Positions 23,841 to 47,421 of a stretch of DNA of 49,652 nucleotides are shown piece after piece. Below the pieces are notes generated by a model that was given only the letters and a program-made list of their open reading frames with translations, was not told the origin of the DNA and searched no databases. The position numbers and the translations under genes are program-made. Position 1 is the first letter of the stretch; the number at the start of each line of letters is the position of its first letter. Source of the stretch: a virus; IMG/VR virus record IMGVR_UViG_3300034198_008242, positions 1 to 49,652 of that record; one strand, written 5' to 3'.

Positions 23841-25079
23841 TCAGATGATTTCCAAGTCCCGATAGGGACGATTAGTTTTATCTACAACGAAAGTAAGTGT
23901 ACCAGTTCTAGAGTCAACACCAGTCAAATCTTTGAACCACTCACTCCCGCCGTCCATAGCCGGACACTGCATATGGATCTTAGTTCTATCATGTTCAATA
24001 ATAGAAAAATGATGATAATGTCCAGTTATAAGAATATTTACATGGCCAATCGGATTATTCGCAAACGTCTGCGCCTTCCACCACTCCTTAACCTTTTTCT
24101 GAGGATCAGCGCCATTGCTAGTTACATGACCATGAGCAAAGCCCAAATAGGTTCCATTAGTTTCTATCACCAAAGAAATTTCATCCTCAGGAATAATAAA
24201 TTTAACATGGCCATAAGCCTCGGGGTTGGCGGAGAGGATCTCTGCAACCATTTCGAAGACAGCGACATCATCGTTATCTCCCCTAGTTGTGAAGGCTTTT
24301 CCTGAGCTATTTCGATTCTCCCCATGATTGCCCGGAACTGAGACAATCAGAACTTCGGGGAACATCTTTGACCAAGTAGTAACCGCCTTAGTCAAAAGAC
24401 GGCGAAGGACACGGATCTGCTGTCTACGATTCAACTGGACGGTGAACGTCTGACTAGCGTAATGTCCTTCGCAGTTCTCCACCATATCACCGATACCGGC
24501 GACAACTAGCGTTTTCATCTTTCGCCCTGACTTCTGGAGTTCGCGGATACGCTCAGTCACACCATCAATCATATCTAAGATGCGCGTGATAGTTCCGTCA
24601 GTTCCATCCCCATCAGCCTTTCCAAGCTGCCAATCTGAAAGGCACACAACAAAAGTTGAGTCACCATCAGCATTCTTTTCTGTCAAAGGACGATGCTTCT
24701 TAATGAGAGTCACAAGATCTTTGTAATCTTCGTCACGATACTGAGTTTCCCTCTTAGCCCTAATGCCTATCTTATAAGAATAAAGTCTCTTGACTTCTCC
24801 CTCACCAGCATTAGCATCCCAAGAAGAAATCTTGACAGGCTCAATAACTTCATACATCTGAGGATCGTATCCAAGTTCCGCAAGAAGCTCGTCCCAATCC
24901 TTCACAGGCTCGCTATAAACTTCTGAGGTAACTTGAACCTCTTCTCCATCCCAATCAACGCTAGGCTTAAGCGCAGCAGGTGGCTTTATGGTTGTCTCTT
25001 TCTTAGGTGGAATATATTCCTTGCCGTCAAGATTAGGGAGATTTAAAGACTCGTCTCCCTCATAAGAAAAATGTTTCAT
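23841..25079 (-). CDS. calcineurin-like metallophosphoesterase
   Basis: The metal motifs appear in order: CLSDWQLGK, GIGDMVEN, VPGNHGEN, FAHGHV and ITGHYHH, which is the calcineurin-like set D-x-H variant, GDxxx, GNHE, GHxH. A 110-residue polar N-terminus precedes them. The substrate (DNA, cyclic nucleotide or protein phosphate) is unknown. It lies between tail genes and the holin. GGAAGG upstream supports the ATG at 25079. Confidence 0.85.
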   Translation of the reverse strand: MKHFSYEGDESLNLPNLDGKEYIPPKKETTIKPPAALKPSVDWDGEEVQVTSEVYSEPVKDWDELLAELGYDPQMYEVIEPVKISSWDANAGEGEVKRLYSYKIGIRAKRETQYRDEDYKDLVTLIKKHRPLTEKNADGDSTFVVCLSDWQLGKADGDGTDGTITRILDMIDGVTERIRELQKSGRKMKTLVVAGIGDMVENCEGHYASQTFTVQLNRRQQIRVLRRLLTKAVTTWSKMFPEVLIVSVPGNHGENRNSSGKAFTTRGDNDDVAVFEMVAEILSANPEAYGHVKFIIPEDEISLVIETNGTYLGFAHGHVTSNGADPQKKVKEWWKAQTFANNPIGHVNILITGHYHHFSIIEHDRTKIHMQCPAMDGGSEWFKDLTGVDSRTGTLTFVVDKTNRPYRDLEII

Positions 25080-25534
25080 GAATTTTTACCTTCCAATTCG
25101 TTAGACTCAAGTGTAGCAGCATTCTCCGGAGATTTTGCAAATTTGCCACCTTTTGTTCTTTTCCCATTTTTCGCTCGTTCCTTAGCAAGTTCGCCCGTTT
25201 TTTTCTTGCGGTCTTTACTTTGCTTTTTCCCTTCACGATGAATGGCACTATGCTCCGGCACAGTGGTTAAAAAAAGATTTTCCGGACGATTATCCAGTTT
25301 GATTTCATTTATATGATGAATAGTTTCCCAAGACTCAAGTATTCTATTCAAAAATTTTTCAACAACAAGGCGATGTTCATAAACATAGCCATGATTACTA
25401 TGAGGATGCTCAGTATTAAGAACCCTTATATAGCCTTTATCATCAATATATCTGCCACCATTGAAATTTGGATTCTTGTGACCAAAGTTCTCTTTTCCCC
25501 AAGCAATACTATTTCTTCTAGAAGCTAATGACAT
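25076..25534 (-). CDS. HNH endonuclease, free-standing
   Basis: The core YEHRLVVEKFLNRILESWE followed by TIHHINEIKLDNRPENL is the HNH_3-type fold, with the HH of the ββα-metal site and the downstream Asn. The Lys-rich tail (KKQSKDRKKKTGELAKER) should bind DNA. It lies between tail and phosphoesterase genes and overlaps the latter by 4 bases, looking like an insertion into a once continuous operon. No strong ribosome binding site is seen. Confidence 0.85.
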   Translation of the reverse strand: MSLASRRNSIAWGKENFGHKNPNFNGGRYIDDKGYIRVLNTEHPHSNHGYVYEHRLVVEKFLNRILESWETIHHINEIKLDNRPENLFLTTVPEHSAIHREGKKQSKDRKKKTGELAKERAKNGKRTKGGKFAKSPENAATLESNELEGKNS

Positions 25535-42303: not shown

Positions 42304-42332
42304 ATTATAACACTATCCTCTTTTTTAACCAA
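42304..42332 (-). promoter_or_regulatory. sigma-70-type promoter, leaderless adaptor gene
   Basis: TTGGTT (42327-42332), a 17-base spacer and TGT-TATAAT (42304-42309) precede the ATG at 42297 by six bases, so +1 coincides with the start codon. The -35 overlaps the upstream gene's stop. Confidence 0.7.
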
Positions 42333-42654
42333 GTTTATAGAAGTCTTCAACCATCTTTTTGCTAGCAATAACAAACTTATTTGGGTACTCATTAATAAGA
42401 TAATTCGCCTCTAAAGGCTCAACAAGCTGAAACGGATCGGCCTTGGTGAACTCAACATTGGGTGAATAATAAGCTTCCCCGAAGTTCATTTTAACCATAA
42501 TCTTCTCAATATTAAGAGCAGCAAGAGGATCATCAGAGATATTGGGAGTGGCATCAAGAATCTGCTCAGCAGTTTCCACCTTCTTACGAGCAACGCGCTT
42601 TGTTGCTTCCTTCTTCACAACATTCTCTACAACTTCAACAGTTTCATCAGTCAT
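42325..42654 (-). CDS. hypothetical neck-region protein, 109 aa
   Basis: A charged N-terminus (VVENVVKKEATKRVARKKVE) precedes a compact part (KIMVKMNFGEAYYSPNVEFT; EYPNKFVIASKKMVEDFYKL). AGGAGAAAAA gives a strong ribosome binding site. It lies between capsid and adaptor genes, where small head proteins are common. No family recognised. Confidence 0.65.
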   Translation of the reverse strand: MTDETVEVVENVVKKEATKRVARKKVETAEQILDATPNISDDPLAALNIEKIMVKMNFGEAYYSPNVEFTKADPFQLVEPLEANYLINEYPNKFVIASKKMVEDFYKLG

Positions 42655-42677
42655 TTTTTCTCCTAAAAAATACTAAA

Positions 42678-42697
42678 GCCGGGGATTTCTCCCCGGC
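42678..42697 (-). terminator. hairpin terminator after the HNH gene
   Basis: GCCGGGG and CCCCGGC pair around a 6-base loop. On the minus strand TTTAGTATTTTTT follows, giving a reasonable intrinsic terminator 30 bases after the HNH stop. The ribosome binding site of the next gene overlaps the T-run. Confidence 0.7.
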
Positions 42698-42700
42698 CAA

Positions 42701-42720
42701 AGTATATCACAATTTTGTGA
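42701..42720 (-). promoter_or_regulatory. extended -10 promoter with dyad
   Basis: TGA-TATACT (minus, 42701-42709) is immediately preceded by the 14-bp dyad TCACAA-TT-TTGTGA (42707-42720), which may be an operator. Its predicted +1 falls in the 5' arm of the hairpin at 42678-42697. It would serve the gene starting at 42654. Confidence 0.5.
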
Positions 42721-42726
42721 CAAAAG

Positions 42727-43230
42727 TTATGAACGAACCTTGAGTGCTTCCGGGCGATAGAGAGAAAGTATCTCTAAAGCGAATTCTACCTTATCCTCAA
42801 TACGTTGCCCCGTAGGCTGCAGTTTACTCCAAAGCTCCAAGTTCTCAATTCTATTATCTGAGCGATTTCCGTTAATGTGATGGACATTTTCATGGGATTT
42901 GAGTGGACGCCCAATATGTTCTGCCATTACTAAACGATGCTCCATAATAGTTTGTCGTCTAGTTTTCATTGCTTCATAAAAAGGATGATCTTTAGATAAA
43001 TAAATATTGACATAACCATTTTTATCTATAGATCTAGATCCCCCAACCCAATGAATATTATGCTGGCCATAACGTCTATCAATATGTTCAACTCCATTTT
43101 CTTCACATATTCTTTTGACGGTCTTGTGAGTTCTGCCAACTTGTTTAGAGATATTTGTGTAACTTATACCGGAATTGCGTAAATTTAATATTTCAGTCAC
43201 ACTTTGCTCTGTCAGAATTTTTCTAGACAT
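42727..43230 (-). CDS. HNH endonuclease with N-terminal HTH, 167 aa
   Basis: An N-terminal HTH (SVTEILNLRNSGISYTNISK then QVGRTHKTVKRICEENG) precedes the HNH_3 core EHRLVMAEHIGRPLKSHENV then HHINGNRSDNRIENLEL. These are typical free-standing homing-type nucleases that cut intron- or gene-less alleles and promote their own spread. It sits between the capsid and neck genes with its own promoter and an SD-hiding hairpin. ATG at 43230 has AGGAGG nine bases upstream. Confidence 0.9.
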   Translation of the reverse strand: MSRKILTEQSVTEILNLRNSGISYTNISKQVGRTHKTVKRICEENGVEHIDRRYGQHNIHWVGGSRSIDKNGYVNIYLSKDHPFYEAMKTRRQTIMEHRLVMAEHIGRPLKSHENVHHINGNRSDNRIENLELWSKLQPTGQRIEDKVEFALEILSLYRPEALKVRS

Positions 43231-43232
43231 GA

Positions 43233-43264
43233 ATAATGGCCTCCTATTGCTAGGAGGCCATTAT
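43233..43264 (-). promoter_or_regulatory. hairpin hiding the HNH Shine-Dalgarno
   Basis: Arms 43233-43246 and 43251-43264 form a perfect 14-bp stem with a GCAA (GNRA) tetraloop on the minus strand. The 3' arm contains the AGGAGG (43240-43245) of the HNH gene. No T-run follows, so it is not a normal terminator. Confidence 0.85.
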
Positions 43265-43289
43265 AACACAGTGATCTAGTTTGCGTCAA
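43260..43289 (-). promoter_or_regulatory. sigma-70-type promoter of the HNH gene
   Basis: TTGACG (43284-43289), an 18-base spacer and TGT-TATAAT (43260-43265) form the clearest promoter near the capsid gene. The -10 overlaps the outer end of the hairpin's 5' arm, and the predicted +1 near 43253 leaves only about three bases of that arm in the mRNA. Confidence 0.8.
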
Positions 43290-43305
43290 CTTATGACGTT
43301 AAGAG

Positions 43306-44370
43306 CTAACTACGCACCTTGACATTTCTTACGTGAACGTAAGCAGCGGCGTTTTCGATCTGATTGGCAACTCGGATAAACTGAGTGTATTCAATCGTGT
43401 CCTTCTTGGGCTTGAACTCACGGTAAACCGTGATGTCACGCTGAATGCCGATAATACGGTTCTGCGGGAACGTAAGTTCAACGATACCATGATTGCCTGA
43501 GGCAGCAGTATAAGTGCCAGTCTCAGTTTCAGGGTAAAGAGGAACCTCAAGCAGCGGGATGCCGAACGGACGAATGCCATTGACATAATCCGTACCAGCG
43601 CCACCACCTGCACCGCCCATGCCCTGATTGACGATAGCATCGCCAAGAAGGGAACCAGCAGCAGCACCAAAGCCGGAACCAGTGGTACCAGCACCGCCAC
43701 CGGGGTTGTAGGTAGCGTTAGCCGTAGCGTCAAGCGAAAGACTCCAGATGTAGTCCTGAAGCAGCGAGCTAGATGTTGAGAAAGCAAGCTGCGAACGACG
43801 CTGAAGGTACTTGTTCGGCAGGGCACGAAGGGCCTTGTCGAAGGTTGAACGGGTAAGGTTGCCACCGGCAGCGTCAACAACAACGCCACTGGTACGAGCA
43901 AGAACCTTGAAGCCATTAAGTGCCTTATACAGCGGATCTGCGGTAAGAGCAGTGCTGCCATTGATGTAAAGGTCCTCAAGATCGTTAGCGGTCTGGCGAG
44001 CCATAAGCGAAGCTACATGGTCCTCCAGAGAATCGCCTTCGATATTGTCCTCAAGGCCTTCAGTTGTAAGTTCCCAGTCAAGACGAAGTTTAACAGTCGT
44101 CATAGAAACCTTGGTGAAAGTGGGATCAGCATTGCTGCCGTCATCCGTACCTTCAGTAGCCTTACGCATGATGCGCTGGCCAATGTCAACCTTATCGATC
44201 TCAACAGTCGGAGCGTTCATACGAACGATACGAGCCGTCTTCATAAGGACTGACTGATCAAACAGGTAATCAATAAAGCGATTAGCCTGTCTGGGCTTCA
44301 GAATACCGCCTGTACCGGCGCCAATCTGTGTTGTGTTAATAACCTTTTCTAAAAGATCTCTACTGCTCAT
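43306..44370 (-). CDS. major capsid protein (HK97 fold)
   Basis: The protein (354 aa) shows the HK97-like order: helical N-terminus (SSRDLLEKVINTTQIGAGTG), then LKPRQANRFIDYLFDQSVLM, E-loop region, and the spine-helix ARQTANDLEDLYINGS. A Gly-rich loop (GGGAGTTGSGFGAAAGS) is unusual. ATG at 44370 (second of two) is best spaced from GGAGG. Codon use here is more GC-rich than its neighbours, fitting high expression. It follows the prohead protease as in most siphophages. Confidence 0.93.
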   Translation of the reverse strand: MSSRDLLEKVINTTQIGAGTGGILKPRQANRFIDYLFDQSVLMKTARIVRMNAPTVEIDKVDIGQRIMRKATEGTDDGSNADPTFTKVSMTTVKLRLDWELTTEGLEDNIEGDSLEDHVASLMARQTANDLEDLYINGSTALTADPLYKALNGFKVLARTSGVVVDAAGGNLTRSTFDKALRALPNKYLQRRSQLAFSTSSSLLQDYIWSLSLDATANATYNPGGGAGTTGSGFGAAAGSLLGDAIVNQGMGGAGGGAGTDYVNGIRPFGIPLLEVPLYPETETGTYTAASGNHGIVELTFPQNRIIGIQRDITVYREFKPKKDTIEYTQFIRVANQIENAAAYVHVRNVKVRS

Positions 44371-44386
44371 CATTCACCTCCATTAG

Positions 44387-47371
44387 TCATGAATTGTAGC
44401 CTAAGACCTTAACGATCTCGGCAGGGACGAACATTCCGCCCCAAAAGCTTTCCGACTCAACACTCTTTTCGAGAGTCTCACCATCTGCAATATCATCGGC
44501 ATCTACGTCAACCGACTTCTTTTCTGCACCTGAATTAGCAACCTTCTCAAGATCACTTGAAAGCTCTTCGGCGGAATCCTTTACCTCAGAAACGGACTTT
44601 TCGATGGCATCGATCTTTCCGTCTACCTCTGCTGTAATGTCAGCCTTGACCTTTTCAAGCTTCTCATCAAGAAGAGCGCTTATTCCATCAAGTACCTTCT
44701 CAAAATCCATTTCTTCTTCTCCTTCTGGAGTCTCATCATTAAATGAGACATCTTCTCCATCTTCCGACTTCTTCACAGTCTGGAGAGCGTACTCTCCGGG
44801 ACCCTGACCTGTCAGAGCTTCGTCGCCACCAGAAACATTTGAGGACGACGTAGAATTAATAACTTCCATCTTGGGCGTGGTGTCTCCAACACTTTCTTCA
44901 AGCATTCCTCCACCAACATTGATAGTTACTCTAGGAGCATTATCCATGTTGCCCTCAGAAACAATTCTAAGATTGTGATTCATGCTAGTAACATCAACAA
45001 CCTGTCCCTTCTCAACAGTTTCCTTACCGAAAAGGAAATTGCCAAGCTTGGACAGAATAGTTTCTTTTTGCATATCAGTGAAATCTTCTTGAGACATATC
45101 ATTGATAGTAGCATAGTTTTTTGCTAATTGCAAATCATTATTATTTTTTGATACCATAACTTCCTCTCCAATATCTTCAGTTTCATAAACTTCATCTGAG
45201 ACTTTTAATTGCCAAGCCCACTTTTGATGACTATCAATTCTTTCGGCAAGGAAATTTGCAAGACCCTGCTGATTTGCATTTGCTGCAACCTGAAAAGCTA
45301 CATTCAATGTGTCAAGAACTGCATCATTGTCTCTAGCCAATGCCTGCACCATATACTGAGGATCAACTGAATCAACGACTGCATCTGCTAGAGTTGCATT
45401 TGCAATGGATTCAGTAATGCTCTTTGGAGCAACTCCACCAAGCTTAACAATATATTCAGCCAATGGATCTACACTACTAAAAACGTCATCATAAATTTCA
45501 CCGAAAAGACTGTGATAGACAGCAAAGTCATCACCTCTTACATTCCAGTGATAACCATGAGCATGAGAATACATAACCAGTGCATCCGACACTGACTTTC
45601 TCAGAGAATTAATAACCTGTAAGTCCATGCCATTTGGCATGGGCATCATCTTATTAATATTATTTTCCATATTTAATCCCGTCTCCTTCAAGACAGTCGG
45701 CAACTCGCGATCAGGTCCATTGACTCTACGCCAAGCAGCACGAATTTTTTCCTTAACCTTTGGCAAATCTCCAGAAGGAATCTGAACTTGATTCCCTCTG
45801 AATCCCGCCGAAGTAAGCGCAGTAGCCGCTCTAGAAACCTGAGTTACTGTTTCTTTTTGAGAAATACTATCCCAAAGTCTCAACTTCCAAGTTGAAGGCT
45901 TTTCTGAATCCGGAACGTAAGCAAAGGCAGCGGCGGGAAAATCTTCCCCGTCTTCGCGCTTAGTCACTGCTTTATTCATTTCATCATCATCATAAATTCC
46001 CTGCTGAGGCTTTTTAATGCCGCCGCCTCCTGCGCCAACTGACGCAGTATCGACAGATTTATCCAAAGCTGCAATAATAGAAACCGTGGAAGATCGATGT
46101 CCTACGACAGTCTCAGTAGCAGCCCATCCGTCACTCGTCTCTTTCCAGATCTGTATCAAAAGAGCGGGGTCTTCTTCACTTCCATTTATAGAGAAATCAG
46201 AATCTGGAACATTCACAGATCCGCTATTTTGAATTCTAACCACTTTGCCGCGAGCAGTACCGCCAGAAGAATTCCAAGAAACAAAGTTTCCAACTCTAGG
46301 CATTGCCTTCGACATACCATCTCCGGGATCTTCAACACTCATACCATCGACATCAGTGCCAACACCCTTGTCCATAGCTTTAATTCTATTAGTAATAGCG
46401 CGCGCCCAAGTTTGGCCGGGATCTCCGCCCCACAAAGCCCAAGCGATTCTTCCAGCGCTAGGATAACCATCGCCGGGAGTGAACCCCCTACCTTGCTTAT
46501 CAACCTCATGACGAGAGAAGAATGAGTGCATTCTTTTAACAGTCGAAATGCTCAGAGTATCTTTATTCATAATATCTCTAGCTCTAGCTACACCAACAGG
46601 AGTTCCGCCACGATTAAATTCTTTTCTCCACTCAAGACCTCGGCGCGCTTCCGCAGCCATAGCATCTGTAGGAACAGTATCAATGTCAGAAAGAGCCTTC
46701 TGAAAAGAATCATTAATAGCTTCATAAAGCTTGTTAACTAGAATTTCATCATATTCTTGAGCTTTTCCAACGATAAGCATTTCATCTTCACATACAGGGC
46801 AAACGCTATCCCCGCCAATTGAAGTGTAAGCATCTTCTTCACAATAATAAACATCCTGCATATCTTCAGCAACATACTCAAGCTCACCATCAATACTCTT
46901 GATCATTGCGAACATACCAGCAGGATTGCATGGATTATCAACGACACTAAGTTCACCAAGTTTATAATTAACAATTTCGTTAATATATCGGCCAAGCTTT
47001 TCGGATTTTTTCTTCTCTGCCCTTACGACATTGCCACCAATAGAAAAGCCGCGAAGGGTGCCGTCAAGAATCTTCTGCCAAGTGTTTTCAGCGCCCTTTG
47101 AGATATATACGGAAACTTCAATACCCTGATAAGTTTCACCCTCAAATACTACCGGGACGGGCTTCCAATCAACAAGCTTTCCAACGGCAACTGGAGAATG
47201 CATTTCGCGAATATTGCCAATCCAATTGGAAAAAGCTTCTACAGAAGCATCAAAATTTACAACATCATCCACAAGATCCGGATTATCGGCTGTAGCAATA
47301 CCAGTTACGATTCTCTGTTCTTTATTGATCTTTTGGAATGGGAAAGTAAAATTTAAATCTGCTGAGTGCAT
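44387..47371 (-). CDS. prohead protease fused to Dps-like and scaffold-like domains
   Basis: Residues 1-160 are a U35/S78-type prohead protease with H58 (EMHSP), S110 (RGFSIGG) and E140/D145 (GELSVVDNP). Next come a segment with HEVDKQGRGF and YPSAGRIAWALWGGDPGQ (about 240-335), a tudor-like HVA1/DUF2945-type module (VGNFVSWNSSGGTARG, about 355-440), another small module (FAYVPDSEKPSTWK, about 478-570), a Dps-like ferritin domain (about 580-720), and an acidic coiled end (about 880-945), probably scaffold. In the Dps part H608, H620, D635 and E639 keep the ferroxidase spacing of E. coli Dps H51/H63/D78/E82. The third ATG (47371) is best placed behind GGAGG. Confidence 0.85.
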   Translation of the reverse strand: MHSADLNFTFPFQKINKEQRIVTGIATADNPDLVDDVVNFDASVEAFSNWIGNIREMHSPVAVGKLVDWKPVPVVFEGETYQGIEVSVYISKGAENTWQKILDGTLRGFSIGGNVVRAEKKKSEKLGRYINEIVNYKLGELSVVDNPCNPAGMFAMIKSIDGELEYVAEDMQDVYYCEEDAYTSIGGDSVCPVCEDEMLIVGKAQEYDEILVNKLYEAINDSFQKALSDIDTVPTDAMAAEARRGLEWRKEFNRGGTPVGVARARDIMNKDTLSISTVKRMHSFFSRHEVDKQGRGFTPGDGYPSAGRIAWALWGGDPGQTWARAITNRIKAMDKGVGTDVDGMSVEDPGDGMSKAMPRVGNFVSWNSSGGTARGKVVRIQNSGSVNVPDSDFSINGSEEDPALLIQIWKETSDGWAATETVVGHRSSTVSIIAALDKSVDTASVGAGGGGIKKPQQGIYDDDEMNKAVTKREDGEDFPAAAFAYVPDSEKPSTWKLRLWDSISQKETVTQVSRAATALTSAGFRGNQVQIPSGDLPKVKEKIRAAWRRVNGPDRELPTVLKETGLNMENNINKMMPMPNGMDLQVINSLRKSVSDALVMYSHAHGYHWNVRGDDFAVYHSLFGEIYDDVFSSVDPLAEYIVKLGGVAPKSITESIANATLADAVVDSVDPQYMVQALARDNDAVLDTLNVAFQVAANANQQGLANFLAERIDSHQKWAWQLKVSDEVYETEDIGEEVMVSKNNNDLQLAKNYATINDMSQEDFTDMQKETILSKLGNFLFGKETVEKGQVVDVTSMNHNLRIVSEGNMDNAPRVTINVGGGMLEESVGDTTPKMEVINSTSSSNVSGGDEALTGQGPGEYALQTVKKSEDGEDVSFNDETPEGEEEMDFEKVLDGISALLDEKLEKVKADITAEVDGKIDAIEKSVSEVKDSAEELSSDLEKVANSGAEKKSVDVDADDIADGETLEKSVESESFWGGMFVPAEIVKVLGYNS

Positions 47372-47392
47372 CATCATGCCTCCAATCTTGTA

Positions 47393-47421
47393 ATTGTATA
47401 TCAAATATTACATAAAGTCAA
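47393..47421 (-). promoter_or_regulatory. strong sigma-70-type promoter of the capsid operon
   Basis: TTGACT (47416-47421), a 17-base spacer and TACAAT (47393-47398) match the consensus in 10 of 12 positions. The predicted +1 near 47386 leaves a 15-base leader that is little more than the GGAGG. It would drive protease, capsid and the following structural genes. Confidence 0.75.

Follow-up and report, generated by a model that had tools for sequence, protein, structure and literature searches.

In a virus record of 49,652 nucleotides (a 49.6-kb stretch of about 41% GC, hereafter the window), the gene for an HNH endonuclease located downstream of the major capsid gene is preceded by a promoter and a perfect RNA hairpin that overlap each other, the Shine-Dalgarno sequence (SD) being included in the hairpin. 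The best explanation, which we consider probable, is that the gene is a cassette at the capsid end, silent on read-through RNA and expressed from its own promoter. This reading is based on the sequence, the insertion as compared with homologues, the computed fold energies, the recurrence of the arrangement in other phage HNH genes, and covariation in two other leader families. A putatively mobile endonuclease cassette would have landed at the capsid 3' end, ahead of the capsid terminator, bringing a sigma70-type promoter with its start point inside the hairpin. RNA entering from the capsid gene would hold both arms and fold, so that the SD is buried and the cassette stays silent on the abundant capsid message, and RNA from its own promoter, without most of the 5' arm, would be translated. 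The relevant features are as follows.

43306 to 44373, minus strand: major capsid gene (MCP), with final codons GTGCGTAGTTAG, the residues as in relatives and the codons different
43260 to 43289, minus strand: HNH promoter, TTGACG at 43289-43284, an 18-nt spacer, a TG extended -10, and TATAAT at 43265-43260
43251 to 43264, minus strand: 5' arm of the hairpin, ATAATGGCCTCCTA, with the anti-SD CCTCCT and the greater part of the -10
43251 to 43254, minus strand: predicted transcription start region, +1 at about 43253-43251 as judged from leaderless-gene calibration and opening energies
43247 to 43250, minus strand: GCAA loop of 4 nt
43233 to 43246, minus strand: 3' arm of the hairpin, TAGGAGGCCATTAT, holding the SD AGGAGG at 43245-43240
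42727 to 43230, minus strand: HNH endonuclease gene, 167 aa, with an N-terminal HTH-like region, an HNH_3 domain and a C-terminal KVRS
42727 to 42743, minus strand: HNH 3' end, TCAAGGTTCGTTCATAA, matching at all 17 nt the capsid 3' ends in two related loci (L001 and L004)
42677 to 42706, minus strand: displaced ancestral capsid-terminator unit, consisting of an extended -10 (TGATATACT), a hairpin (GCCGGGGAGAAATCCCCGGC) and a U-rich tail
42325 to 42654, minus strand: phrog_9487 gene, the next gene after MCP in relatives without HNH

The HNH protein was identified as a homing-type endonuclease by its match to HNH_3 (E 4.9e-12), within which the catalytic motif VHHINGNRSDNRIENL is intact, and to several HNH PHROGs; an HTH_38-like region covers residues 2-45. 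The window encodes two WhiB-domain proteins and its capsid protein shares about 51% identity with Streptomyces phage capsid proteins, from which we infer an actinophage, as the sequence-only reading of this DNA had proposed. Upstream of the capsid gene, a single ORF of 1005 aa (44387-47404) joins a prohead-protease-like N-terminus, a TUDOR-like domain and a Dps/ferritin domain. At a second HNH gene of the window (25076-25534), no promoter/hairpin leader like that at 43.2 kb was found, and a search of the window against Rfam matched no family.

The arms at 43264-43251 and 43246-43233 are paired at all 14 positions, and AGGAGG lies ten bases before the ATG (43230-43228). Among the eight inverted repeats of at least 14 nt listed for the window, the leader repeat is the sole perfectly complementary pair. 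The promoter agrees with the consensus at 11 of 12 positions in addition to the TG, and is the top promoter-like site between 40 and 46 kb; the pattern TTGACN-N17-19-TATAAT occurs once in the window (0.16 expected). Both the 14-bp stem with its GCAA loop and SD-containing 3' arm, and the TTGACG-N18-TATAAT promoter with its -10 overlapping the 5' arm, had been described before, and were confirmed here as one interlocked unit. The folding of the leader gave a z of -6.8. When the -10, SD and ATG were held fixed and the remaining leader bases were permuted, none of 2000 shuffles equalled the observed cost of opening the ribosome-binding site (RBS), 26.2 kcal/mol as against a maximum of 16.7 in the shuffles. 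Near-matches (TATAATGGCCTCC) elsewhere in the window were at chance level, and thus the leader hairpin is not a phage-wide element.

The position of +1 was calibrated as the 7th nt after the -10 hexamer, using leaderless-type genes. The sequence TGNTATAAT precedes two other genes of the same phage, a head-tail adaptor gene (42312-42297) and a 201-aa gene (8507-8492), which are likely transcribed as leaderless mRNAs. Since the ATG of each (starts 42297 and 8492) lies exactly 7 nt past the hexamer, the HNH +1 was put at 43253, a plausible position, the nearest purine being 43251. Opening of the SD-AUG region was computed to cost 25-26 kcal/mol in the read-through RNA; in the own-promoter RNA the cost falls with the position of +1, from 20.8 (43259) through 11.9 (43256) to 5.8 (43253) and 5.6 kcal/mol (43251). 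A start 7-9 nt past the -10 would, by this model, lift the block on the RBS, with RNA begun at about 43253 losing most of the 5' arm, and a +1 at 43256 or further upstream would leave most of the sequestration in place (at least 11.9 kcal/mol). The sequence-only reading, in which the long RNA is closed and the own-promoter RNA is open, is thus supported in computation (25-26 versus 5.8 kcal/mol) for the predicted start. The difference between long and own-promoter RNA, 20.4 kcal/mol, is the largest of all the leaders scored.

The origin of the arrangement was traced by comparison with related capsid loci. Five of these (L001, L004, L005, L006 and L008) carry no HNH gene between MCP and the next gene, and their junction is homologous to the window, the order after the capsid stop being TGTGNTATNNT, a GC hairpin, a U-rich tail, an SD and the next gene. 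In the window, the capsid-like 3' end of the HNH gene is followed by the extended -10 and the terminator of this clade, identical to L005 over 31 nt and with a hairpin (42698-42677) scored as terminator-like, indicating that the final capsid codons were the point of entry of the cassette. The HNH 3' end appears to have replaced the old capsid end, leaving the capsid terminator behind HNH. Read-through from the capsid gene into HNH, claimed earlier, is therefore to be expected, as a prediction from gene order. The capsid gene itself closes (43306-43321) with synonymous codons GTGCGTAGT that differ both from those of relatives and from those of the copy at the end of the HNH gene; such codons could shield the host allele from the nuclease.

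The closest HNH homologue (L002/L003), 60% identical and also ending in PEALKVRS, lies between one copy of the terminator and a second; its promoter is kept and its SD is free. Loss of pairing in a homologue that keeps the gene had been named beforehand as evidence against the switch, and strictly this is what L002/L003 show, with a terminator instead. The SD-hiding stem is, on the sequences compared, not conserved at this capsid site: two protein scans for a further homologue with the same stem at the capsid end gave only L002/L003. The two placements point to the selective pressure involved, as the window cassette is placed between the capsid gene and its terminator, whereas the closest homologue, after a terminator, has a free SD. 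In L002, HNH is followed by a second capsid-type terminator and then by a C5-methyltransferase-like gene (from 5887); more than one gene appears to have been inserted at this capsid site.

Among about 50 capsid loci compared, nearly all carry a hairpin after the capsid gene and most an extended -10 near it. In the clade of the window, the -10 precedes the 5' arm or lies within it. In a second group it overlaps the 3' arm or follows it closely, the ATG of the next gene usually being some 7 nt past the -10, and in a third group the -10 is located about 20-30 nt downstream of the hairpin. In the displaced unit of the window (42677-42706) and in the five loci without HNH, the extended -10 is at or in the 5' arm of the post-capsid terminator; this -10 pairs with bases past the hairpin and seems to covary with them (TATACT/AGTAT, TATGAT/ATCAT). 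A promoter starting inside the terminator would escape termination, and a terminator-proof promoter is thus possible at these sites.

The same comparison bears on the proposal that the HNH leader hairpin is mainly a terminator or attenuator of the capsid message, diverged from the post-capsid terminator, with the overlap of the SD as a by-product of compactness. A hairpin terminator stands at this position in nearly every relative examined, mostly with an extended -10 nearby; the nearest clade has the -10 at or in the 5' arm as in the window, and L002/L003 retain a real terminator before HNH. A hairpin is present in the window, as expected of an intrinsic terminator, but it is followed by TCATGTCT instead of a U-tract, and the terminator scan that called the displaced ancestral hairpin at 42698-42677 did not call it. 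Its arm sequence also differs from the rest of the clade and holds the SD. We therefore regard the terminator proposal as unlikely, albeit the strongest of the alternatives.

The generality of the read-through-silent arrangement was examined in 137 phage HNH genes gathered by protein similarity alone. A promoter was accepted when its -10 agreed at 5 or more of 6 positions and was accompanied by a TG or by a -35 with at least 4 of 6, 12-45 nt before the start; a leader was scored as a switch when the RBS was at least 4 kcal/mol more closed in the long than in the own-promoter RNA. The promoter criterion selected 28 of the 137 genes, and 62 other genes of the same contigs served as controls. Switch-type leaders were found for 23 of the 28 HNH genes as against 3 of the 62 controls (p=1.3e-13), with rule-based assignment of start codons, SDs and +1 and only partial control for kinship within the HNH set; 114 of the 137 do not score as switches (23/137 do). 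After clustering at 50% identity, the ratio is 8/8 for HNH versus 3/46 for control clusters, and with the window left out 7/7 versus 3/46 (p=8e-7), although the HNH proteins all fall together in one cluster at 35% identity, so that the counts need not represent independent origins. A composition-controlled test gave 18/28 versus 2/62 (p=5e-10). Of the controls, the strongest is the gene that follows the second L002 terminator. HNH genes from cellular contigs show a weak effect, 4/11 versus 0/15 (p=0.02), which is non-significant for well-supported promoters. Leaderless-type promoters were slightly enriched among HNH genes (8/137 versus 32/1255, p=0.04), an enrichment on which no claim rests. 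In Streptomyces phage PinkiePie (L439) and phage BRock (L438), TTGACA-N17-TACAAT or TATAAT lies a few bases before the ATG of HNH genes, which are probably leaderless. With many sigma70-like phage HNH leaders equivalent to that of the window, the earlier idea of a separate origin of the switch in this actinophage found no support.

Three geometries were recognized among these leaders. In the first, the -10 is paired with the start-codon region (L300, L327, L371, L415 and L406); in the second, the SD is part of the 3' arm and the 5' arm falls between the -35 and the -10 (L374, L421, L357 and L363); in the third, the 5' arm includes the -10 plus the anti-SD, as in the window and in a GIY-YIG gene (L127) for which a search for relatives returned L127 alone. 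The latter gene came from a pattern scan, the matches of which serve as examples only because they were chosen by the pattern itself; in a second leader set (A2 and A3 queries) the seeds were picked for their switch-like look and the members fetched by protein. Two further hairpins were observed. A perfect 15-bp stem TATAATATCCTCCTAGGATCCTAGGAGGATATTATG of the same geometry as the window precedes a non-endonuclease gene with a weak virion-protein match (L130, 1292-1331). In Mycobacterium phage Soul22 (L440), a hairpin of about 15 bp without an obvious SD ends directly at the HNH start codon (gene at 210), a possible related leader.

Double changes were found in 4 of 12 pairs of leader family A4, with a covariation score of 0.241 against 0.117 in shuffled alignments (0/500 reach 0.241), and in 4 of 19 pairs of family A5 (9 cells; 0/500 shuffles equal); the structures were read off the same sequences and relatedness alone can beat such shuffles, so that the covariation is support for RNA pairing and not proof. 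These compensatory changes, together with retained G-U pairs, favour RNA over a DNA operator.

An operator was considered as the palindrome could be bound over the -10 and the start by the HNH protein or another regulator, leading to repression of the promoter. The inverted repeat is indeed perfect across the -10 and +1, the HNH protein has its HTH_38-like region, and I-TevI represses its own expression by binding an operator that covers the late promoter (PMC2988022). An RNA hairpin, however, suits the tight loop of 4 nt and the presence of the SD within the arm, other HNH leaders have the 5' arm in the -35/-10 spacer, where it shows no symmetry about +1, and the G-U pairs retained there break DNA symmetry. 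An operator is accordingly improbable as the main role, and the two functions are mutually compatible. Least probable is a chance or RNA-stability hairpin protecting or processing the capsid 3' end with no part in HNH translation: stable hairpins are common at the ends of strongly expressed capsid mRNAs and hairpins occur family-wide at this site, but the perfect pairing extends through the -10 and includes the SD, none of the 2000 constrained shuffles matched it, and the same logic is strongly enriched in HNH leaders over control genes.

Returning to the silent-cassette reading, we favour, with less confidence than for the window itself, the view that an RBS-hiding hairpin broken by an internal start is common in sigma70-driven phage endonuclease genes well outside the T4-like phages, in at least three geometries and for enzymes of the HNH and perhaps also the GIY-YIG and endonuclease VII types, so that a mobile gene could land in any operon and remain deaf to transcription of its neighbours. 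Homing genes need expression without harm to the adjoining gene, and a leader with the start inside the hairpin would insulate them from nearby transcription in about 60 bases and with no protein. If the survey holds, such leaders would be a recurring answer to the survival of homing genes in very active operons, recognizable from sequence, and a source of natural read-through-proof leaders.

In the introns of phage T4, the SD of I-TevI, I-TevII and I-TevIII is held in a stable hairpin on RNA started upstream, and RNA from an internal promoter lacks the 5' arm (PMC2988022, PMC3014915). I-TevI shares with the window an endonuclease gene, an SD-hiding hairpin and an internal promoter placed to drop the 5' arm. 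The three T4 genes are intron-encoded, use phage middle or late promoters and serve temporal control, whereas the window gene is a free-standing HNH gene beside the capsid gene of an inferred actinophage, with a sigma70-type extended -10 and a perfect 14-bp stem. The support from computation for the I-TevI-type logic of the sequence-only reading covers the distinction between read-through and own-promoter RNA, as opposed to the early/late timing of T4; the promoter of the window HNH gene is sigma70-like (TTGACG/TATAAT) and not of the T4-type late kind (TATAAATA). The T4 genes e, soc and 49 (endonuclease VII) carry an inhibitory structure over the RBS in longer transcripts, and in the case of e its 5' strand contains late promoters (PMC3014915); unlike the window gene, these are ordinary phage genes with late promoters, not mobile elements, and the purpose is timing. 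In seg43 of Aeromonas phage 25, a very stable hairpin lies immediately upstream of the endonuclease RBS, which is left unhidden (PMC2988022), resembling L002/L003 and differing from the window with its SD inside the stem. In the open-access literature, RBS-hiding hairpins of endonuclease genes were found for T4-type phages only, which is not proof of absence elsewhere. In two free-standing endonuclease genes, mobE of Aeh1 and segB of T4, an RNA hairpin likewise covers the RBS and a promoter is nearby (PMC2988022); mobE, like the window gene, encodes an HNH enzyme. Both belong to T4-type phages of Gram-negative hosts and use late promoters, mobE being located within a ribonucleotide reductase gene and not at a capsid 3' end. 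The logic itself is thus already known from T4-type phages (I-TevI, segB and mobE), and what is new here is the lineage, the type of promoter and the breadth of its occurrence.
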